NCBI GenBank assembly: GCA_903930515.1
Contig: CAIYYW010000274.1
Coordinates: 1-21,053, forward strand
Direction: 5' to 3'
Source of the DNA: an uncultured delta proteobacterium
GTDB lineage: Bacteria > RBG-13-61-14 > DRUE01
DNA length: 21,053 bases
Position 1 is the stretch's first letter; every line of letters starts with the position of its first letter. Below, piece by piece: positions 3,593 to 15,859 of the stretch. The notes beneath the pieces were generated by a model. The model made no database searches. It saw only the letters and a list, made by a program, of their open reading frames with translations, and had not been told where the DNA came from. The position numbers were made by a program, and so were the translations under genes.

Positions 3593-4426
3593 ATGTCGGA
3601 AAAAAGCTGGAAAGAATTGTTCGAGTCCAGCCTCCCTTCTCAATGCCCGCAAATGTATGAGAAGCTCAAGCTCTGGCACCTGGAGGTTTCCGAGCGGGCC
3701 GGGGTGATCTGGGACAACTTGAGCAAGTTCACCTCGCTTCCTGGCAAAACCTTTCTGGACTTCGGATGCGGCGAAGGGGGCATGGCCATTTATTTTGCCA
3801 AAAAAGGGATGACCGCTTCGGGAGCCGACATCACCCAGGCGCAACTGGAGCGCTCCCGGCTCCGGGCGCGGGAAGAGCAGGTCGGCTTGGCCGCTTTTCT
3901 GATCAATGAACAAGGACGAATCCCGGAGGCGCCGGACGAACAGTTTGATATTGTCTTGTGCCACACCGTTATCGAGCACTGCCGCTATCCGGAAGTCACC
4001 ATTTCCGAATTGAAACGGCTGCTCAAGAAAGGCGGCTTGATTTATCTTACCACCTGCAACCGGCTCGGCTTGGGCTGGATTTTTAAAGACGCGCATTATC
4101 ATCTGCCCTTGGTGTCGTTCCTGCCCAAATTCCTCAGTGATCCGTTGGTAAGAAAATTCCGCAAAATGGAAAACGATGTGACGCATTTATTCACGCCCAT
4201 CGGCCTGAACCGGATTTTCAAGAAACACGGCCTGAAAGTTGTCTATTCATATCCCGATGAGGTGCGGGAAAAAATACAAAAGCCGGGGAAAATCGTGTCC
4301 CCGTTTAAAAGCGGAATTTTTACGATTTTAAATAAACTGAGAATTACCCGGCTGCTCCCGCTGCTGATGCCGGTAATCCATTTATTCACGGACAGTTTGA
4401 TTTACATCCTTACCAAAGAGCAATAG
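3593..4426 (+). CDS. Class I SAM-dependent methyltransferase (277 aa)
   Basis: Rossmann-fold methyltransferase of the UbiG/Methyltransf_11 type. Motif I is LDFGCGEGG (55-63), the acidic residue of motif II is Asp80 in GADI, and a post-II segment with FDIVLCHTVIEH leads into LKRLLKKGGLIYLTT. The C-terminal portion carries VTHLFTPIGLNRIFKKHG, typical of small-molecule or lipid methyltransferases, and ends in a hydrophobic segment (LLPLLMPVIHLFTDSLIYIL) that could associate with the membrane. ATG at 3593 has GGAG four to five bases upstream, and the gene follows the UPF0104 gene by 9 bp, so it is the third cistron of that operon. The acceptor cannot be read from the sequence; a polyprenyl or lipid acceptor is suggested only by its neighbours. 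Confidence 0.87.
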   Translation: MSEKSWKELFESSLPSQCPQMYEKLKLWHLEVSERAGVIWDNLSKFTSLPGKTFLDFGCGEGGMAIYFAKKGMTASGADITQAQLERSRLRAREEQVGLAAFLINEQGRIPEAPDEQFDIVLCHTVIEHCRYPEVTISELKRLLKKGGLIYLTTCNRLGLGWIFKDAHYHLPLVSFLPKFLSDPLVRKFRKMENDVTHLFTPIGLNRIFKKHGLKVVYSYPDEVREKIQKPGKIVSPFKSGIFTILNKLRITRLLPLLMPVIHLFTDSLIYILTKEQ

Positions 4427-4480: not shown

Positions 4481-4509
4481 TTGACAACTGCCGATTCCAG
4501 CCGCATAAT
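4481..4509 (+). promoter_or_regulatory. Consensus-like sigma70 promoter for the second methyltransferase
   Basis: TTGACA (4481-4486, perfect -35), 17-base spacer, CATAAT (4504-4509, five of six for -10). Initiation near 4516 gives a leader of about 40 nt before the ATG at 4556. It lies in the 129-bp gap after the first methyltransferase, so the two methyltransferases can be transcribed separately. Confidence 0.65.
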
Positions 4510-4555
4510 TGTTTTCTGAAAATGGTCCGGAAGGCTTGGCCGCCTCGCGCTTACC

Positions 4556-5441: not shown

Positions 5442-6803
5442 ATGGATTTTGATGTAGTGGTTGTCGGCGCCGGTCCGGGCGGCTGCATAGCCGCGAGAGA
5501 TTTGGCGCGCGCGGGTTTCCAAGTGGGCCTTTTTGATTCCGACACCAGAGAAAATCTGGGCAAGACCGTCATCATCGAGGCTGAAAAAGTTATGTTTGAT
5601 ACCGTGTCCGTTACCCATCCGAACGCGGAAGAAATACCCTATCATCCCAAATCCGTCCGGATTTTTTCCGGCCGGGGCAAAGAGGCTTTTGTCTTGCAAA
5701 AAGAGCTTCCCAGTTACGGCATATATCTTGACCGGATGGTAAAAAGATTCCGGGCGGACGCGGAAAAGAGCGGGGCGAAATTTTTCGGAGGATTCCGCGC
5801 CTTGGGTCCGGTGGTTTCCGAGGGCAGGGTTGCCGGGGTGGTTTTCCAGAACCGCGAACAAAAGCAGGAGGCGCGGGCGCGGCTGGTGATTGACGCGACC
5901 GGGTTCAACGCGGCGTTGTTGCGGAAATTAGATCCGGGCCTGGGGATTGAATTTGAGGAAAAGCCCGGGGATATTGTGGTTGCGGCAAATCAGTTTTGCG
6001 AGATAGATCCGGCCAAAGCCGAACAAGCGGTGAGCAGCGGCCGGCGCAAGGACGAGGAAGTCTGGAATTACCTAAGCCCCTATGGCTCATATTCAACGCG
6101 ATACTCTCACTTGTCGGTAAAGAATAAACGCGCCTACATTCTGGTCGGACTGAAAGCGGACTACGATATGCCCGCGCCGGATGAACTGATCGAGCGATTC
6201 AAACGGGAGCAGGGCTACTATGGGAAAAGTCTTTACCGGGGCAAGGGATCCATCAGGATCCGACATTCTTTGGAGCGGCTGGTGGCTGACGGGTTTATGG
6301 CGATCGGCGAGGCCGCCTGCCAGGTGATCCCGGCTCACGGGAGTGGGGTGTCATCTGCGATGTACGCGGGACATCTGGCGGCCCAGGCCGCGATCCCGGC
6401 GCTCAGCAAGGGCCAGGCGACCACCGCGGAGCTTTGGCCCTATGCCCGGGAATATCAGTCGGGAAGGGGGGCCGTGCTTGCCACCTTGAGCGCGGTGAGA
6501 CTGATGGCTGATTCCCTGAGCCAGGACCAGCTCGCCGCAATGCTGGAACAGGGGATTATGACCGAAGACGACCTCTCCAGCGCGTTCGTGCCCGCGTTTG
6601 CCAAAATTTCCATTTCAAGTTTTCCGCGCCGGATCATCGGGTTTGCCAAGAATTCTGGAGTGATCCGACCGATGGCCAGGACTTTGAAAGCCGTGGCAAC
6701 CCTCCGGTTCCATTATGGGAAATACCCCAGGGCTTATGACCCGCAGGAATTCGCCGCATGGAAGGAAAAGACCAAGCGCATCTTCTCGTCCCTCGGATAT
6801 TGA
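5442..6803 (+). CDS. Geranylgeranyl-reductase-family FAD-dependent oxidoreductase (453 aa)
   Basis: Flavoprotein with an N-terminal dinucleotide-binding fold (DVVVVGAGPGG, residues 4-14; acidic end of the second strand at FDSD, 31-34) and a second FAD motif, GEAACQVIPAHGSGV, near 287-301. This pattern belongs to the geranylgeranyl reductase/FixC/tryptophan-halogenase-like class. Known relatives reduce double bonds of polyprenyl chains in chlorophyll or archaeal lipids, some with ferredoxin as donor; others hydroxylate or desaturate. The start is secure: GGAGG lies about 8 bases before ATG 5442. The C-terminus ends FSSLGY. A close copy of its last 24 codons and 3' flank recurs after the acyltransferase gene (7857-7964). 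The methyltransferases and polyferredoxin upstream suggest isoprenoid or lipid-tail reduction, but this is inference. Confidence 0.85.
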   Translation: MDFDVVVVGAGPGGCIAARDLARAGFQVGLFDSDTRENLGKTVIIEAEKVMFDTVSVTHPNAEEIPYHPKSVRIFSGRGKEAFVLQKELPSYGIYLDRMVKRFRADAEKSGAKFFGGFRALGPVVSEGRVAGVVFQNREQKQEARARLVIDATGFNAALLRKLDPGLGIEFEEKPGDIVVAANQFCEIDPAKAEQAVSSGRRKDEEVWNYLSPYGSYSTRYSHLSVKNKRAYILVGLKADYDMPAPDELIERFKREQGYYGKSLYRGKGSIRIRHSLERLVADGFMAIGEAACQVIPAHGSGVSSAMYAGHLAAQAAIPALSKGQATTAELWPYAREYQSGRGAVLATLSAVRLMADSLSQDQLAAMLEQGIMTEDDLSSAFVPAFAKISISSFPRRIIGFAKNSGVIRPMARTLKAVATLRFHYGKYPRAYDPQEFAAWKEKTKRIFSSLGY

Positions 6804-6840
6804 AAATCCCCCTGGCCTCAGAGGCGGATGTCCGGGTGTG
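6733..6840 (+). repeat. Left copy of a 108-bp direct repeat (3' end of flavoprotein gene)
   Basis: Matches 7857-7964 at a constant offset of 1124. Over the coding part (6733-6803) 68 of 71 bases are identical and all three differences are synonymous (Gln, Ala, Ser third positions). The first 37 bases after the stop still match at 31 positions, then similarity fades near 6850. Weaker similarity extends left to about 6725. Confidence 0.92.
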
Positions 6841-6912
6841 ACCCCTGGAGTTCTTTCAAGTTTGACCCTTATCCATGCTTATGCATGATAAAAATGTGCC
6901 TGCGCCAAGGCG

Positions 6913-6941
6913 TTGACATGTCCGTCTTTCATAGGTAACTT
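6913..6941 (+). promoter_or_regulatory. Candidate promoter of the acyltransferase gene
   Basis: TTGACA (6913-6918, perfect -35), 17-base spacer, TAACTT (6936-6941, keeping the T1, A2 and T6 positions of the -10). Predicted initiation near 6948 is directly at the ATG at 6949, which has no well-placed ribosome-binding site, so a leaderless message is possible. Upstream, CATGC-TTAT-GCATG (6874-6887) forms a small hairpin. The promoter lies inside the segment bracketed by the direct repeats, so the gene carries its own promoter. Confidence 0.45.
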
Positions 6942-6948
6942 CAAAAAT

Positions 6949-7863
6949 ATGAATTTTACCGACAAAGTTAGAGGTTCCATATCATTTCTGCTCATGGCGC
7001 TTAACACCATCTTCTGGGGATTGCCGATCTTCTACCCGCTGGCCCTGGCCAAAGTGGTGGCGCCGTTCAAGTCCTGGCGCAAGCTGATCGGCCGGGCGCT
7101 GACCCTCATTGCCGAGACCTGGATCTCATTCAACAGCCTCAACCTGCGCATTTTCAGCGGCGTGAAGTGGACCGTCAACCTGCCGCCGGGTATGAAAAAG
7201 AATGACTGGTATCTGGTGATCTCGAACCACCAGTCCTGGGCGGACATCCTGGTGCTCCAGAAAATATTCAACCGCAAAATCCCTTTCCTCAAGTTCTTCC
7301 TCAAGCAGGAGCTGATCTGGGTGCCGGTACTGGGCATTGCCTGGTGGGCGCTGGACTTCCCGTTCATGAAGCGCTATTCCAAAGCGCTGCTGGCCAGGAA
7401 GCCCGAGCTCAAGGGCAAAGACCTGGAGACCACCAAAAAGGCCTGCGAAAAATTCAAGACCATCCCGGTTTCGGTCATGAACTTTGTGGAAGGCACGCGC
7501 TTCACCGGCCGGAAAAAACTGGACCAGAAATCCCCTTACCAGCGCCTGCTCCAGCCCAAGGCCGCGGGCATGGCCTATGTGCTTTCCGCCCTGGGCGACC
7601 AGATGCATAAGATCCTTAATGTTACCATCGTCTATCCGCCGGAGGCGCGCACCCTCTGGCAGCTTCTCTGCGGCGAGATCCGGGAGATCAAGATAAATAT
7701 TGAATCAATGGACATCCCCCCGGAACTGATCGGCGACTATTTCAACGACGAAACCTTCCGCGCCAGCTTCCAGGATTGGCTTAACCGCCTGTGGGCCAAG
7801 AAAGACCTGCAAATGGCGGCGATGTCCAAATCACCAAATCCCGGGGGCCCCCAAGCCTTATGA
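6949..7863 (+). CDS. yihG: YihG-type 1-acylglycerol-3-phosphate/lysophospholipid acyltransferase (304 aa)
   Basis: PlsC-superfamily membrane acyltransferase. The HX4D catalytic motif is NHQSWAD (93-99), with the glycerol-phosphate-binding FVEGTR (179-184) downstream. A hydrophobic N-terminal segment (11-37) anchors it. The order and wording of blocks, including PFMKRYSKA, GKDLETTKKACEKF, PKAAGMAYVL and the GDYFNDETFR-SFQDWLN end, follow Escherichia coli YihG closely from memory, and the length is similar (about 310). YihG-type enzymes transfer acyl groups, including polyunsaturated ones, to the sn-2 position. ATG 6949 is preferred over TTG 6913, which is the -35 box of the candidate promoter. 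The last few residues and the stop lie inside the right repeat, so the native C-terminus may have been replaced. Likely acquired as a unit by recombination. Confidence 0.87.
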   Translation: MNFTDKVRGSISFLLMALNTIFWGLPIFYPLALAKVVAPFKSWRKLIGRALTLIAETWISFNSLNLRIFSGVKWTVNLPPGMKKNDWYLVISNHQSWADILVLQKIFNRKIPFLKFFLKQELIWVPVLGIAWWALDFPFMKRYSKALLARKPELKGKDLETTKKACEKFKTIPVSVMNFVEGTRFTGRKKLDQKSPYQRLLQPKAAGMAYVLSALGDQMHKILNVTIVYPPEARTLWQLLCGEIREIKINIESMDIPPELIGDYFNDETFRASFQDWLNRLWAKKDLQMAAMSKSPNPGGPQAL

Positions 7864-7927
7864 CCCGCAAGAATTCGCCGCTTGGAAGGAAAAGACCAAG
7901 CGCATCTTCTCGTCGCTCGGATATTGA
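7850..7927 (+). pseudogene. Orphan 3' end of a second flavoprotein gene
   Basis: In the frame starting at 7850 the sequence reads PKPYDPQEFAAWKEK and on to FSSLGY and a TGA at 7925-7927, essentially the C-terminus of the flavoprotein ending at 6803 (PRAYDPQEF there). Nothing upstream in this frame continues the protein: it runs straight into the acyltransferase gene, whose own stop (7861-7863) lies inside this fragment. It is a remnant with no start. Because its differences from the intact copy are silent, it probably descends from a once functional homologue. Confidence 0.82.
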
Positions 7928-7964
7928 AAAGCCCCCTGGCCTCAAAGGCGGATGCCTTTGTGTG
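7857..7964 (+). repeat. Right copy of the 108-bp direct repeat
   Basis: Second member of the pair with 6733-6840. It holds the orphan flavoprotein tail and the start of its former 3' flank. After about 7974 the sequence becomes unrelated and leads into the end of the minus-strand protease gene. No other feature is seen in the 124-bp gap. Confidence 0.92.
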
Positions 7965-7987
7965 CCCCTGAAGCTCCCCGCTCTGGG

Positions 7988-8821
7988 TCAGGAAAAGCGG
8001 GAAAAGATGCCGAGCATGACCGGAATGTCGGCACCGGCATGGAACAGGACCGAGCCCCAGATGCTGTTGGTCTTTTGCATGAGGTAACCCCACCATAAGC
8101 CGAGGGGGAAAACGATAATCATAAAGAGGAACACATCCGTTGAATAGCTGACCTGCAGGTGCGCCAGCGCAAAAATGATGGCCGCACAGAAATTGGCCGG
8201 GTGCGGCCCCAGGGTCGCCGCGAAATTTTTCAGGAACAGGCCGCGGAACAAGAGTTCCTCGCTGGCCGCGTTGCAGAGCACAAAAATCAGGATCCAGGGC
8301 GACCAAGCCAGGGCTTTGGCCGCGGTAAGGTCATGGGCTTTGAATAAATGATTGGCGGCAAAAAAGCAGGTGACCAGGAAAAATCCAAAGCCGATCAGAC
8401 CGATGGCCAGGCCCCGTTTGAGGTTGCCTTTTCCGAGAGAGATCGAGTCCAGGTTTCCGCCGGCAAGCTTGACCAGCAAAATAATCGGAACGATCCAGCA
8501 AACGCTCATCGAGACCTTGGCCGCGGCTTGCCCCTCGGGCGTGTTAACGGATAAAGATAGCCATTTAAGGGGCTTGCCGCTGAATTCCCAACTCACCAAC
8601 AAACAGAGGGAGGCGACGAAGAAAGCGTAAAATACCTGCCCAAGTTCTGCAAAGCGCTTGACCCTCCCGAAGCCGAGGGCGGCGGCCAGGAAAGCGGCGC
8701 ACAGCCCGATCCGGAGAGGCCATTCAATCCCGTTGGGAATCGAGTCTGAAAAGGAGATGCCCACGAATATTGTGATCAAACCGCAGATCAGAAATAGCAC
8801 AAATAGCCCGACTTTCTTCAA
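7988..8821 (-). CDS. CPBP (CAAX/Rce1-type) intramembrane glutamic endopeptidase (277 aa)
   Basis: Multi-spanning membrane protease of the CPBP/Abi family. All signature motifs are present: EELLFRG (E188, E189, R193), FALAHLQ with H221, and a late HAGAD with H261. About eight hydrophobic segments surround them. Family members cleave prenylated proteins in eukaryotes and process or protect small peptides in bacteria; the bacterial substrates are mostly unknown. The start is TTG at 8821, supported by GGAG five bases upstream; no ATG lies nearby in frame. It ends 23 bp from the orphan flavoprotein fragment on the opposite strand. It stands 38 bp downstream of the small HTH gene and could be read with it. 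Confidence 0.88.
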   Translation of the reverse strand: MKKVGLFVLFLICGLITIFVGISFSDSIPNGIEWPLRIGLCAAFLAAALGFGRVKRFAELGQVFYAFFVASLCLLVSWEFSGKPLKWLSLSVNTPEGQAAAKVSMSVCWIVPIILLVKLAGGNLDSISLGKGNLKRGLAIGLIGFGFFLVTCFFAANHLFKAHDLTAAKALAWSPWILIFVLCNAASEELLFRGLFLKNFAATLGPHPANFCAAIIFALAHLQVSYSTDVFLFMIIVFPLGLWWGYLMQKTNSIWGSVLFHAGADIPVMLGIFSRFS

Positions 8822-8859
8822 CGCCTCTCCTATAACTTCAGGAACATGCGGGGTCAGGT

Positions 8860-9069
8860 CTAAATTTTAAATTTAAGGGCATTGACCTTTTTTCCCAAAT
8901 CCGAGTCATCAAACATTCGGTCGGTTAATCTTTGGTCCCCCAAAAGCACCGCCATCGGACTCACCCCCAATTCATTTGCCACCCGAGTTTTGCTGATCCC
9001 GCAATGCTCGACCAGATGGTAGTAAGCCGCCAGCCGGTCTTTGTCAACTACTTTAGCGACGGTTTGCAT
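8860..9069 (-). CDS. Small helix-turn-helix protein (69 aa), possible transposase remnant
   Basis: Short basic protein whose middle (24-44, GISKTRVANELGVSPMAVLLG) reads as a clear helix-turn-helix: a first helix, a Gly turn, then a recognition helix. A helical lead-in (KDRLAAYYHLVEHC) precedes it, and the C-terminus is KKVNALKFKI. Just after the stop the strand reads GACCTGACCCC, preceded by an AT-rich stretch encoding the last codons; similar ends occur, as I recall, beside REP-associated transposase genes in environmental genomes. It may be the C-terminal DNA-binding piece of such an element, or a small stand-alone regulator. There is no good ribosome-binding site before ATG 9069. Coding status is moderately likely, family unknown. 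Confidence 0.5.
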   Translation of the reverse strand: MQTVAKVVDKDRLAAYYHLVEHCGISKTRVANELGVSPMAVLLGDQRLTDRMFDDSDLGKKVNALKFKI

Positions 9070-9179
9070 TTTATTAAGAAAAAATATTCTTTGTCAAGCA
9101 AAAAGTGAAAGAATCGGTATGGAGGGGTTATGCGGACAGGGCAATCCAAAGCGTCTTCGGCGCGGGATAAAGAAGCGCC

Positions 9180-9193
9180 TGATTGGGCGGGAA
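9180..9193 (+). repeat. 14-bp direct repeat, copy 1
   Basis: TGATTGGGCGGGAA, repeated exactly at 9262-9275, 82 bp apart, both in the leader region of the glycosidase gene. Copy 2 runs into the ribosome-binding site. It could be an operator pair or chance duplication. Confidence 0.5.
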
Positions 9194-9225
9194 TAAAGGT
9201 GTTAGACGGTCAGGGGTCAAAAGCT

Positions 9226-9253
9226 TTGAAATAAAATTGGCTGGTGATAGACT
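9226..9253 (+). promoter_or_regulatory. Candidate promoter of the glycoside hydrolase gene
   Basis: TTGAAA (9226-9231), 16-base spacer, TAGACT (9248-9253, four of six). Initiation near 9260 gives a leader of about 20 nt with GGAAGGAAC before ATG 9281. It lies between the two copies of the 14-bp repeat. The rest of the 211-bp gap (9070-9280) shows nothing else I can support. Confidence 0.35.
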
Positions 9254-9261
9254 TTCGGAAA

Positions 9262-9275
9262 TGATTGGGCGGGAA
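9262..9275 (+). repeat. 14-bp direct repeat, copy 2
   Basis: Exact second copy of the 9180-9193 sequence. It starts just after the predicted transcription start and its last bases precede the AAGGA of the ribosome-binding site, so a protein bound here would affect initiation. Confidence 0.5.
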
Positions 9276-9280
9276 GGAAC

Positions 9281-12262
9281 ATGAAGAAATCCAAGTTCGG
9301 CTTGATGACGGGATTGATGTTGCTGATCGGTTTGGTCTGCATAGGCCCAGGAATGGCCAAGGAAGATGGCGCGGCCAAGGAAGAGCAAACTGGTTTGTCG
9401 TGGTCGGCATTTGCGGAACCGGGCAAGGAGTTCCGTCCGCTGGTTCGGTGGTGGTGGCCGGGGAACGATGTGGATGAGAAGGAACTCCGGCGCGAGGTTG
9501 ACCTGCTCGCGGACAATGGGTTTGGGGGCGCGGAAATCCAGGCGTTCAATGCCGCGCTCGGTAAATTGACTCCGGAGGAATCGGAAAGGATGCATTCGGT
9601 TGACACCGAGGCATATTTTAAAAACCTGGCCGGGGTGATGGACCAGGCGAAAAAAGACGGGTTGATCATAGACCTGACTTTGGGATCAGGCTGGCCCTCG
9701 GGCGGCTCGCACCTCAAGAGCGAGCAGGCGATCAAAACCATGTTCTGGGGAGAGACCCAGTTGACCGGCCCGACCGGGAAAATCAAGATCACAGTTCCGC
9801 CTCCCCCAAAGCCGGCGCTCTATCAACTGAGCGGGGTGTTGAAATTTGTCGCGGCCGAGGCCGCGATCAGGTTTATGCCGGACCAGGCGCAACTGGTAAC
9901 GGTGCTCGCGGCAAAAGTAATTGGCGGGGCGCGCTCCTCAAATCCGCTCAATCTCGCGGACACGATCCGTCTTGACCCGAATTCAGTCCAGGTCCTGAGC
10001 AACCAGACCGACCGGGAGGGAAAAATTTCCTGGCAGGTCCCGGAAGGAAAATGGCAAATCATTTCCCTTTACCTTGCGCCGGACGGACAATATCTTTCGC
10101 TCAGCGCGTCACCTGAGCCGGCTTATGTGGCGGATTATTTTGACGCCGAGGTTTTCCAATCCAACCTGGAGCATCTGCTGGGCGGGCGCTCGGGTTTGCC
10201 GAAATATTACCACGATCCCTTGCGCGCTTTTTTCAATGACAGCTTTGAACTCAAGACCGAGCGTTTCTTCACCAGAGACTTCGTCTCTGAATTTCAGAAG
10301 CGACGCGGCTATGACCTGACCCCGCTGCTTCCCGCAGTCCTGATCCCGGGCGCGGACAATATGCTCTTCATTGATGGAGGCATCAAGACCGGGTCCGCGT
10401 TCACCCTTTCGCCGGAGGACCGGCGCGTCCAGTATGATTACCAACTCACGGTTTCGGATTTGTTCATGGAACGCTTCATTGATAATGCCGAGCAATGGGC
10501 TGAGGCTCGGGGGCTTCTCTCGCGCGTGCAAGCCTATGGTCTGAACATTGATGTCTTGAAAGCGCTGGGCCATTCCGGGATCCCGGAAGTGGAACAGCTT
10601 TACGCCGGCGGCTATGAGGCGTTTTTGAAAATGGGAGGCGCAGCCTCTCATCTTTACAATCGCCCGATAGTGACTTGTGAAAGCATGGTCTGGATGGGCA
10701 AGCCATTTATGACCACGCCGCTCAAGTTCAAGGCCTCGGCGGATAAATTGCTCGGCAGCGGAGTGAACCAGATCATCTATCACGGGTTCCCCTATCAAAG
10801 GGATTCGCGCTACGGCGAGACCGGCTGGTTCCCGTTCGGGGGCGGCTTTTCCGAAAATGTATCCGAGAAGAATCCGTTCTGGAAATTTATCCCGGAGCTC
10901 AACCGATATATTTCGCGCTGCCAATACGCGCTCCGGCAGGGAAAGCCCGAGGCCGACCTTTTGATCTACTACCCCTTCTTCGGGTTCCCCACTTCGTTTG
11001 ATCAGACCGGCAATAACGATGAACTCCTGTTCAACGGCGAATTTGATTCCGAGCCGGCCGGCCCGATCAATACTTTGGTCGCGATCGGCTCAAAAATATT
11101 GCCGATGGGGCCGGACGAGCGCGCGCAATGGCGCGCGCGAATCAGGCCGCTGCTCAAGGAGCTTGAGGACAACGGATACACCTGGGACTGGGTGAATGAT
11201 GACAGCCTGCTGGAAGCCAAGTCGGAGAACGGAAGGGTCTGGATCCGGGGTAATGAATGGAAAGCGCTTTTGCTCGTGAATATTGAAACGCTTGACCCAA
11301 AAACCGCGTCCAAAATTTCCGGGCTGGCCAGGGATGGATCCGCGCTGCTGTTCCTTGGAAATCCGCCGGCCCGGCAGCCGGGATATAAAGATTATGCGCA
11401 AGGAGACCAATCGGTTCAGCGGGAGATCAAGAACACCCTGGCCGGGGCGAGAGCGAGAAAGGTTGATCCGGGATCGGCGCTGAAGACCCTTTCCGAAATC
11501 CAGGTGCAGCCGGGAATTGTTTTTGACCGTCCGCGCGGGATTGGTCATCTCAGCAGAAGGGTCTCGGAGCGGGGCCGAATTATTTTTTTGCGCAATCCCG
11601 GAGAGGCCTCAACCAAATTCAGCTTCGCGGTTTCGGGCGGATGCGAGAACGGCCAATGGCTGGATGCCTGGAAGGGAGAGAGGTTCGGGGCGAGGATGAG
11701 CCGGGAGGGGATGATTGAGTCCGAGCTTGCGGCTTATGGATCAATGATCCTGGCCTGCGGGATGGAAATACCGCCCGGAGAGATCAAGTCCTTCCGGCTC
11801 TGGCCGCAAAATCTCGCGAGCGCGGGCGAGGTTGAAATCAAGAACTGGAATTTGTCCGTGAGCGGGTCGGATGTAAAAGGCGCAAGCGTGAGCCTTGCCC
11901 TGGATCAATTAAAAGATTGGCGGGAGCTTGAGCAGTTGAAATATTGCTCCAGTCCGGGGGGTTACCAAAGCGATTTTGAATGGCCCGAAATCAAGCCCGG
12001 ACCAAAGGCGATTTTGGAAGTCGGATGGGTTTATGGAGCGGCAGAAGTCAAAGTCAATGATCAGCCGGCAGGCAACCTCCTGATCCCTCCGTTCCAGCTT
12101 GAAATCGGCCGCTATTTAATTCCCGGCAAAAATAAAATTGAAATCACCCTGACCCCGGCCTTGCGCAACCGATTGGCCGGAAAGGACAGGGCCAGGAAAG
12201 AAAACCTTCTTCCGACCGGAATCATCGGACCGGCCCGGGTTCTGATTTTGGAAGCGCGCTAG
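9281..12262 (+). CDS. Secreted GH106-like glycoside hydrolase, possible alpha-L-rhamnosidase (993 aa)
   Basis: Large exported enzyme. A signal peptide is clear: MKKSK, a hydrophobic core to residue 22, and cleavage after GMA near residue 26. The start of the mature protein has the block PLVRWWWPGNDVDEKELRRE (53-72), characteristic of GH106-type enzymes whose known members remove alpha-L-rhamnose from plant glycans. A TIM-barrel-like region follows, with the CESMVW segment near 466-471 before a KASADKLLGSGVNQIIYHGFPY block. The C-terminus (EVKVNDQPAG to EIGRYLIPGKNKIEITL) reads as a beta-sandwich carbohydrate-binding domain. The length fits the family. ATG 9281 follows GGAAGGAAC. It stands alone, without transporters or other glycosidases nearby, and ends 4 bp from a convergent gene. 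Substrate not proven. Confidence 0.85.
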   Translation: MKKSKFGLMTGLMLLIGLVCIGPGMAKEDGAAKEEQTGLSWSAFAEPGKEFRPLVRWWWPGNDVDEKELRREVDLLADNGFGGAEIQAFNAALGKLTPEESERMHSVDTEAYFKNLAGVMDQAKKDGLIIDLTLGSGWPSGGSHLKSEQAIKTMFWGETQLTGPTGKIKITVPPPPKPALYQLSGVLKFVAAEAAIRFMPDQAQLVTVLAAKVIGGARSSNPLNLADTIRLDPNSVQVLSNQTDREGKISWQVPEGKWQIISLYLAPDGQYLSLSASPEPAYVADYFDAEVFQSNLEHLLGGRSGLPKYYHDPLRAFFNDSFELKTERFFTRDFVSEFQKRRGYDLTPLLPAVLIPGADNMLFIDGGIKTGSAFTLSPEDRRVQYDYQLTVSDLFMERFIDNAEQWAEARGLLSRVQAYGLNIDVLKALGHSGIPEVEQLYAGGYEAFLKMGGAASHLYNRPIVTCESMVWMGKPFMTTPLKFKASADKLLGSGVNQIIYHGFPYQRDSRYGETGWFPFGGGFSENVSEKNPFWKFIPELNRYISRCQYALRQGKPEADLLIYYPFFGFPTSFDQTGNNDELLFNGEFDSEPAGPINTLVAIGSKILPMGPDERAQWRARIRPLLKELEDNGYTWDWVNDDSLLEAKSENGRVWIRGNEWKALLLVNIETLDPKTASKISGLARDGSALLFLGNPPARQPGYKDYAQGDQSVQREIKNTLAGARARKVDPGSALKTLSEIQVQPGIVFDRPRGIGHLSRRVSERGRIIFLRNPGEASTKFSFAVSGGCENGQWLDAWKGERFGARMSREGMIESELAAYGSMILACGMEIPPGEIKSFRLWPQNLASAGEVEIKNWNLSVSGSDVKGASVSLALDQLKDWRELEQLKYCSSPGGYQSDFEWPEIKPGPKAILEVGWVYGAAEVKVNDQPAGNLLIPPFQLEIGRYLIPGKNKIEITLTPALRNRLAGKDRARKENLLPTGIIGPARVLILEAR

Positions 12263-14047: not shown

Positions 14048-15859
14048 TCATTCGCCCTTGGCGACAGCTTCCTCTCTCGGGTCCGCGCCCCCGATCAGTT
14101 TTCCGGACTTGTCCCGGATGATCGCGCAGACCGCGCCCATTGTTACCGCGGGCGGGCTCAGGATCTCCACCTTGTAGTTGCGCTTGCTCAAAATTTCCGC
14201 CCGGTCCCGGATCGCTTCTTCCAGTTGAATTTTCCCGGGATAGTAAAAATGGGGCGAGAAGGAATCCGGGAAGTTCAGGGACTTGAAGCGGGGCGCGTTG
14301 ATCGCGGTCTGCGGGTCCATTCCGAATTCCACGATGTTCAAAAAGACCTGAACCATTGCCTGGGGTTGCTGGTCTCCGCCCGGGGTTCCGAAGGCCATAA
14401 ACAGCTCGCCGTCCTTGGTCACCATACTCGGGTTGGGGGTGAGCCGGGGCCTTTTGTTGGGAGCGATCTGGGCGGGATGTCCCTCTTTGAGCCGGAACTG
14501 CTGGATGCGGTTTCCCAGCATGATCCCGTAACCAGGGACCATCGGCGAATACGGAAAGTCAGAGGGCGTGAGCGAGAAGCCGTTTCCCATTTTGTCCACC
14601 ACGGCGAGATAGGTGGTATCATGCGCGGCGCGATGCGGGGGCAGGCTCGCCGGGGTGAGACGCGGACGATAAACTTTCGCCGGCCGCGGACGGCCCTCAT
14701 ATTTCCAGGGATCGCCGGGATCGGGCATTTTTCCGAAGCCCGCTTTGGGATTGATCAGCTTCCTCCGTTCTGCGGCGTATTCCTTGCTCAGCAGCCCCTT
14801 GAGCGGGACATCCACAAAATCCGGATCCCCAAAATACGCCTCGCGGTCGGCATAGGCCAGCTCAATCGCCTGCGCGACCATGGCGATATATTCCGGCGAG
14901 TTATGCTTAAGCGCTTTGAGGTCAATCCCTTCCAGGATCTGGAGGATCATCGGCACGGTCGGCCCCTGGCACCACGGCCCATTGGAATACACCGTATAGC
15001 CCTGGTAAGTCCCAAAGACCGGCTGTTCCCATTTACCGTGAAATTTTTCCAGGTCGGACTTGGTCATCGGACCCCCGCGGTCCTGATGAAGCTTCGCGAT
15101 TGCGTCCGCGATTTCTCCCCGGTAAAAAACATCGCGGCCGGCCTCAAGGGCCTTGATCCGGTCATGGGATTTTTTCAGCTCGGCCTGCTCGGCCTGAGCC
15201 ATCAGCGTTAAAGTTTTGGCAAGGTCTTTCTGATAGAGGATGTCACCGGGCTTGGGACCCTTTGGCTCAAACGGTTTCCAGAAAATGGAATAGTTGTAGG
15301 GCCATAAATGTTTCATCAGCGAAATTTCCACCGACGATATTTGCATAAAGCCGGCCGTGGTTTTATTGAGCGGATGCCCTCCCTCGGCCAGCTTGATCGC
15401 CGATGCCGAGACTTCCGCAAAGCTCATCGTGCCGTATTTTTCCAGGATCGCGATCCAGGCGTCGGGCGAGGCCGGGATCAACTGCGCGTTGATCCCGAAG
15501 ATGGGCGCGACCGGCCAGCCTTGAGCGCGGATATATTCAGGGGTATCTTTGGCCGGGGCCGGGCCGAGCCCGTTGTAGCTGTGAACCTCTTTCTCGTTTG
15601 CCACATAGATCAGGGTGGGCGCGACCCCCATCATCCCGGCGGACATCGGCCGGGTCACATTGAGCGCCATCGCGGTTGCCACTCCCGCATCAAAGGCGTT
15701 GCCGCCCTTGCGCAAAATGTCCAGCCCGGCCTCGGTGGCGAGCTGATGGCCGGACGCAACCATATAATGATCCGATTGCGCCGGCTGATCCCATTGTCCG
15801 TTCGCGGCCGGCGCTTGAAAATACGCTGCGATCAAAATCAAAACCGCTATTTTTTTCAT
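14048..15859 (-). CDS. ggt: Gamma-glutamyltransferase-family N-terminal-nucleophile hydrolase (603 aa)
   Basis: Exported, self-processing hydrolase. A signal peptide (MKKIAVLILIAAYFQAPAANG) precedes the mature protein. The large-subunit region has ASGHQLATEAGLDILRKGGN and a long helical middle; the small subunit should begin at Thr415, the first Thr of DTTYLAVVDKMGN, matching the TTHYSVVD nucleophile site of E. coli GGT (580 aa). Family members hydrolyse gamma-glutamyl bonds of glutathione or transfer the glutamyl group in the periplasm. The later motif is TPGGDQQPQAM rather than the E. coli-type SPGG-RI, a form found in GGT-like enzymes whose substrate is less certain. GAGGAG lies just before ATG 15859. 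It follows the two-TM protein by 28 bp and is probably co-transcribed with it. Confidence 0.92.
   Translation of the reverse strand: MKKIAVLILIAAYFQAPAANGQWDQPAQSDHYMVASGHQLATEAGLDILRKGGNAFDAGVATAMALNVTRPMSAGMMGVAPTLIYVANEKEVHSYNGLGPAPAKDTPEYIRAQGWPVAPIFGINAQLIPASPDAWIAILEKYGTMSFAEVSASAIKLAEGGHPLNKTTAGFMQISSVEISLMKHLWPYNYSIFWKPFEPKGPKPGDILYQKDLAKTLTLMAQAEQAELKKSHDRIKALEAGRDVFYRGEIADAIAKLHQDRGGPMTKSDLEKFHGKWEQPVFGTYQGYTVYSNGPWCQGPTVPMILQILEGIDLKALKHNSPEYIAMVAQAIELAYADREAYFGDPDFVDVPLKGLLSKEYAAERRKLINPKAGFGKMPDPGDPWKYEGRPRPAKVYRPRLTPASLPPHRAAHDTTYLAVVDKMGNGFSLTPSDFPYSPMVPGYGIMLGNRIQQFRLKEGHPAQIAPNKRPRLTPNPSMVTKDGELFMAFGTPGGDQQPQAMVQVFLNIVEFGMDPQTAINAPRFKSLNFPDSFSPHFYYPGKIQLEEAIRDRAEILSKRNYKVEILSPPAVTMGAVCAIIRDKSGKLIGGADPREEAVAKGE

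Follow-up and report, generated by a model that had tools for sequence, protein, structure and literature searches.

How single genes and small selfish modules reach new sites without a recognisable transposase is poorly understood. One described class is insertion with long target duplication (ILTD), in which restriction-modification (R-M) systems are flanked by direct duplications around 100 bp in size (PMC3874152, PMC3031569, PMC4978471). Another is homology-facilitated illegitimate recombination (HFIR), in which one end is homologous and the other illegitimate, with a match of 3-10 bp and inserts of about 1 kb; it is known in S. pneumoniae, A. baylyi, P. stutzeri, and E. coli (PMC3240628). 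A displacement similar to the one discussed below has also been proposed for V. cholerae T6SS immunity arrays and for Rhs orphan 3' ends (PMC5361080).

The locus described here lies on contig C274 of a 401-contig draft genome of 3.65 Mb (G000), in a stretch of 21,053 nucleotides that was analysed as a whole and is referred to as the window. On balance, and with restrained confidence, we read this locus as the scar of one horizontal exchange, i.e., a one-sided homologous import from a congener by HFIR. The features concerned are given below, where G001 is the only other genome of the genus compared (MAG AlinenSedimentsD2_bin-1424, contig CAIUDS010000609.1).

5442..6803, + strand: intact gene for a FAD-dependent flavoprotein of the geranylgeranyl-reductase superfamily, 453 aa (Pfam DAO, FAD_binding_3)
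6725..6847, + strand: left repeat copy (L), the final 25-26 codons of the intact flavoprotein gene and its 3' flank
6826..6853: stretch of the left 3' flank with a short sequence also scattered between genes in G001 (3 sites, 21 nt, at most 2 mismatches)
6857..7848: insert of 992 bp without counterpart in the interval between the flavoprotein and GH106-like genes of G001
6949..7863, + strand: YihG-family 1-acylglycerol-3-phosphate O-acyltransferase gene (NF058536, PF01553), with its likely start at ATG 6949 in an ORF that opens at TTG 6913
7845..7852: putative illegitimate junction, from the aligned junction sequences, where the acyltransferase end is joined to a flavoprotein tail with the bases CCCC in common
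7849..7970, + strand: right or orphan repeat copy (R), the final 25 codons of a flavoprotein allele and its 3' flank, now outside any flavoprotein gene
7988..8821, - strand: Rce1/CPBP-like intramembrane protease gene, directly behind the orphan copy
9281..12262, + strand: gene for a GH106-like protein, the right edge of the synteny common to G001

The 108-bp repeat of the original prediction is present, and the gapped match is slightly longer: in a within-window search, 6725-6847 matches 7849-7970 over 123 columns with 90.2% identity (E 3e-40). The counts of differences given with it (three in 71 coding bases, all silent, and 31 of 37 bases identical after the stop) are correct for the stretch chosen. 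Two codons further to the left, the match adds two replacement differences (Arg/Lys and Ala/Pro), and past the stop the homology of the flanks runs on beyond a 1-nt gap, to about 53 nt. The acyltransferase's stop codon does lie inside the right copy, as had been claimed (TGA, 7861-7863). A search of the whole genome (3.65 Mb, 401 contigs) retrieved these two copies of the flavoprotein tail (E 2e-57 and 4e-41) and no third. A draft in 401 contigs could in principle have brought the flavoprotein tails of two strains together in one contig, but the sequence makes such an assembly artefact unlikely. The junction shows an overlap of at most about 4 bases, the sequence has no Ns, a third copy is absent, and the orphan tails of both the flavoprotein gene and rpoD (described below) differ from their intact counterparts within the first 6-15 bases, whereas a k-mer misjoin would start with a shared k-mer.

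Judged by its translation, a complete gene for a YihG-type lysophosphatidate acyltransferase (LPAAT) separates the two copies. It passes the curated threshold of NF058536, the YihG-family LPAAT model, with 428.1 bits against a cut-off of 260 and a match to model positions 3-289 of 290, and its translation contains the acyltransferase motifs HX4D (as NHQSWAD) and EGTR (as FVEGTRF). The enzyme is predicted to make phosphatidic acid with a fatty-acyl preference of its own. In a comparison of C-termini, YihG relatives terminate 7-19 residues past a common Trp...Lys-Asp motif; here the last few codons and the stop are supplied by the junction with the right copy, which places that junction at or just before the natural end of the acyltransferase. 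Of the promoter attributed to the gene, all that was found is one 9/12 consensus match (6862-6889), with 1.8 sites expected by chance in the scanned region. Foreign codon usage was considered as evidence of transfer and set aside, in that a z of 4.5 relative to the window's genes was gone when the gene was compared to 91 ORFs of similar length from the genome, among which its usage is ordinary (79th percentile).

Among 385 other genomes searched, five have a YihG homologue at E < 1e-20, none of the five being from the window's phylum, and the acyltransferase was absent from the other genomes of the phylum compared (three phylum genomes in the set). No donor with the gene order flavoprotein-acyltransferase was found in a comparison set in which three genomes represent the phylum: searches of genome contigs returned G001 again and nothing else, viral contigs yielded no flavoprotein, and plasmid records yielded acyltransferases only, at about 51% identity or less. 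Separately, a YihG-like acyltransferase with 54% identity over residues 23-293 was observed on the viral contig IMGVR_UViG_3300035190_000295 (L102, 4965-5858), with a Toprim/AAA replication gene on one side and terminase genes on the other, and this is possibly a phage-borne lipid acyltransferase.

The intact flavoprotein scores under threshold for both equivalogs (NF041080, 185.7 bits with a cut-off of 580; TIGR02032, 102.2 bits with a cut-off of 158.8), and on these scores it is a relative within the superfamily only, not a geranylgeranyl reductase or DGGGPL reductase equivalog. Its ortholog in G001 is a 77% identical protein. On the other side of the insert, the CPBP protease was not found in G001 or in G002, the further relative compared. 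Beyond the protease is a 69-aa ORF (8860-9069, - strand) with an 11/12 sigma-70-like match at its start, which we take, as a guess, to encode a small DNA-binding domain.

The comparison with relatives, suggested originally as a means of telling the histories apart, finds in G001 an "empty site": the locus reads methyltransferase, flavoprotein, 2.5 kb of other genes, and a GH106-like gene, the order of methyltransferase, flavoprotein, and GH106 being that of the window; it has a single flavoprotein tail and lacks both the acyltransferase and the CPBP protease. The G001 interval diverges beyond the tail, so this match is not base-exact at its right edge, and since the whole interval from flavoprotein to GH106 differs between G000 and G001, we regard the site as variable. 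The flavoprotein gene and the region upstream of it are homologous to G001 throughout. These relatives bear on the possibility that the orphan is what remains of a tandem flavoprotein paralogue, the body of which was replaced by the acyltransferase or deleted beside it. Such a pair would result in coding-type divergence between the tails; nevertheless, G001 holds a single copy and so lends no support, G002 has none above threshold, and three separate steps (duplication, insertion, and deletion) are needed. We therefore consider this history, which the original prediction had put among the simple ones, unlikely.

The same variable site is occupied in G001 (C609, L033) by two proteins without clear family (7649-8653 and 8780-9388), and the DNA adjoining them contains short repeats that match the window's genome about 30 times. 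The sequence AGGGGTCACACCCGGACATCC from the left 3' flank (window 6826-6846) is dispersed intergenically in G001, on contigs C391, C320, and C718 (L045, L047, and L044). The flank was considered as a mobile repeat that brought the acyltransferase, and this candidate was rejected: the 21-nt core, with one occurrence in G000 and three in G001, is too short and too rare.

With G001 as outgroup, the differences between the two copies could be assigned to one or the other lineage. Over 75 coding nt, three changes are derived in the intact copy L (one replacement, and two of the three that are silent), none is resolved as derived in R, and two are left unplaced by G001. Over the 53 nt of flank, in an alignment read by eye, about six changes are derived in R and two in L. 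The lineage of R has thus accumulated 0/75 derived coding changes compared to 6/53 in the flank (Fisher p = 0.004; treating four clustered changes as a single event gives p = 0.07, and assigning the unplaced sites to R gives p = 0.03). This supports the view that, for the larger part of the time since the copies separated, the right copy would have belonged to a functional gene. The original proposal that the right copy was under selection before it lost its gene stands in part: this contrast, together with the rpoD case below, favours it, but its own argument that the differences are all silent is weak by itself, given that the intact copy accounts for two of the three silent changes and that, for the flavoprotein pair alone, neutral decay of an orphan is not rejected in simulation (p = 0.25).

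Silent divergence between L and R is about 0.22, compared to about 1.0 for the whole gene between G000 and G001 (NG86), which indicates that the tails split long after the species did and yet are not fresh duplicates. The earlier argument against a recent slippage duplication is borne out by this value. At all three resolved coding sites R carries the base of G001, and its flank aligns to G001 slightly further than that of L, as expected if R is the resident tail. In the flank, L rather than R is marginally nearer to G001.

The import of the acyltransferase from a relative by recombination, one of the histories originally offered, remains the simplest, though its direction is probably the reverse of the one proposed: the intact gene's tail and the acyltransferase were probably imported, and the orphan right tail is probably the resident one. 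In such an exchange, DNA from a congener, in which a YihG-type acyltransferase came after the congener's own flavoprotein gene, would have paired with the resident flavoprotein region. The left joint would have formed by homologous recombination, upstream of or inside the flavoprotein gene, and the right joint by illegitimate fusion of the acyltransferase end at the 4-base CCCC match, 75 bases before the stop of the resident flavoprotein. The donor's flavoprotein 3' end and acyltransferase would replace the body of the resident gene, of which the last 25 codons would remain. The product would be an intact flavoprotein gene (donor or hybrid) with tail L, a new acyltransferase gene, and the displaced resident tail R with the original downstream DNA, and both neighbours would keep their function.

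The observations behind this reading are the architecture of the locus, the number of copies, the acyltransferase-free site with a single tail in G001, the complete acyltransferase domain, and the excess of flank over coding change in R; what we infer is the donor and direction of the exchange, its one-step mechanism, and the enzyme's activity. The CCCC match at 7849-7852 is within the 3-10 bp range of HFIR and is a weak indication, as chance can produce a match of four GC bases. Genes for ComEC and DprA are present in G000 and in both relatives; as both proteins are widespread, their presence only leaves DNA uptake open. Counting against the import, the contrast between coding and flank changes involves few sites, and the ordinary codon usage does not mark the acyltransferase as foreign.

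About 1.05 Mb of the same genome was sampled for pairs of nearby copies, 40-400 bp long, with one copy inside an ORF and the other outside. This sample gave nine hits at eight sites, all in direct orientation; all near pairs together number 48 direct and one inverted, and are mostly tandem paralogues or repeat proteins. Once repeat proteins were set aside, along with a single pair of dispersed intergenic repeats, five clean loci were left, the window among them. The others are as follows.

Contig C62 (L118), 12161-12246 and 14204-14289: the last 84 nt of rpoD (28 codons, stop included) recur with 83% identity
Contig C267 (L163), 7036-7085 and 7779-7828: 50 bp of recG recur with 98% identity around a hicBA pair
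Contig C5 (L066), 2658-2756 and 3734-3830: an SRPBCC-like (Polyketide_cyc) gene has its 5' end repeated with 80% identity around a HepT/MNT pair
Contig C22 (L178), 4503-4552 and 6217-6266: a 50-bp boundary of two genes, prophage-like, recurs on either side of a LamG-like gene

Directly behind rpoD, the cargo on C62 consists of an N6/N4 methylase and a Tsp45I-type restriction endonuclease. HicA on C267 was assigned by Pfam and HicB by reading of the sequence, the duplicated 5' end on C5 is a signal-peptide-like region, and the gene names and prophage-like nature of C22 come from reading of translations. Six silent codon changes and three conservative ones (Lys-Arg, Met-Ala, and Thr-Val) separate the rpoD orphan from the intact tail, and none of 430 neutral-orphan simulations run with that number of differences gave so few replaced codons. 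Because none of the simulations was as protein-conserving, the rpoD orphan looks like the allele of another lineage and not like a decayed duplicate. The same simulation gave p = 0.07 for the SRPBCC-like pair and p = 0.31 for recG.

These loci also bear on a true insertion with long target duplication, in which a staggered or replicative process doubles a target of about 120 bp, the two copies being identical at birth and the orphan decaying thereafter. The architecture is the same as that of the R-M insertions of Nobusato 2000 and Furuta 2010, as described in PMC3874152 and PMC3031569. R-M, HicBA, and HepT/MNT cassettes provide further instances of it in this genome, the recG pair is 98% identical, and the neutral-orphan model is not rejected for the flavoprotein pair taken alone. 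In contrast, R has no derived coding changes and six in its flank, and the differences of the rpoD orphan conserve the protein and cluster by codon, which is unlike decay; nor were a transposase or terminal inverted repeats noticed in the insert. Taken together, we regard target duplication as rather unlikely at this locus.

Site-specific integration at the 3' end of a gene could leave a similar picture, the element bringing a replacement tail and the old tail being left at its far end, as when the element e14, integrated at the 3' end of icd, supplies that gene with a replacement tail. It would yield a direct duplication of a gene's 3' end with mostly silent differences, and the gene would stay intact. 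Against it, scanning of window proteins revealed no integrase, the acyltransferase being the sole gene seen between the copies, and none was found in the inserts of the four further loci. Moreover, the targets differ (rpoD at its 3' end, recG internally, an SRPBCC-like gene at its 5' end, and a phage gene boundary) and provide no common site, making such integration very unlikely. Most likely, the one-sided exchange favoured here is an event of a known kind that recurs at several other genes in this genome.

Among described systems, the acyltransferase itself compares to E. coli YihG (PMC7277886), with which it shares the LPAAT family, a full-length domain, and both the HX4D and EGTR motifs. 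It differs in its neighbourhood and in an identity of about 42-43% to the enterobacterial homologues found, and its activity is a predicted one. The locus resembles the V. cholerae T6SS/Rhs arrays (PMC5361080) in that an incoming module anchors by upstream homology and the old 3' end is pushed downstream as an orphan; in those arrays the old part is retained for immunity, whereas the orphan tail here is without evident function. With HFIR the locus would share one homologous end, an illegitimate end with a short match, a gain of about 1 kb, and the possibility of a single event. Unlike HFIR in controlled transformation, it is read from a natural scar, and its illegitimate end would have fallen inside a resident gene, so that the tail stayed behind.

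The likeness to ILTD lies in a cassette with no recognised transposase between direct repeats of the order of 100 bp (here 123 columns at 90%), in a relative (G001) that has the site without the cassette, and in the R-M cassette at rpoD of the same genome. The window's cargo, however, is a single metabolic gene and not an R-M system, and the 10% difference between its copies shows signs of coding constraint, so that they look like two alleles and not like a fresh duplication. What may be new is this indication that the two copies are alleles, tying the ILTD class to one-sided homologous recombination. We tentatively suggest, as an idea that could well prove wrong, that the "long target duplications" around R-M, toxin-antitoxin, and metabolic cassettes here are allele pairs in which the resident end was displaced by one-sided recombination with a relative. 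If so, ILTD and HFIR would be the same process, and the scars a readable record of gene acquisition; with paired ends that are alleles of two lineages, each scar would name its resident and its donor, and silent divergence would date the event. Such scars can be found in any genome by a scan for orphan gene ends in direct orientation, which would make the proposed link between ILTD and one-sided recombination testable across genomes.
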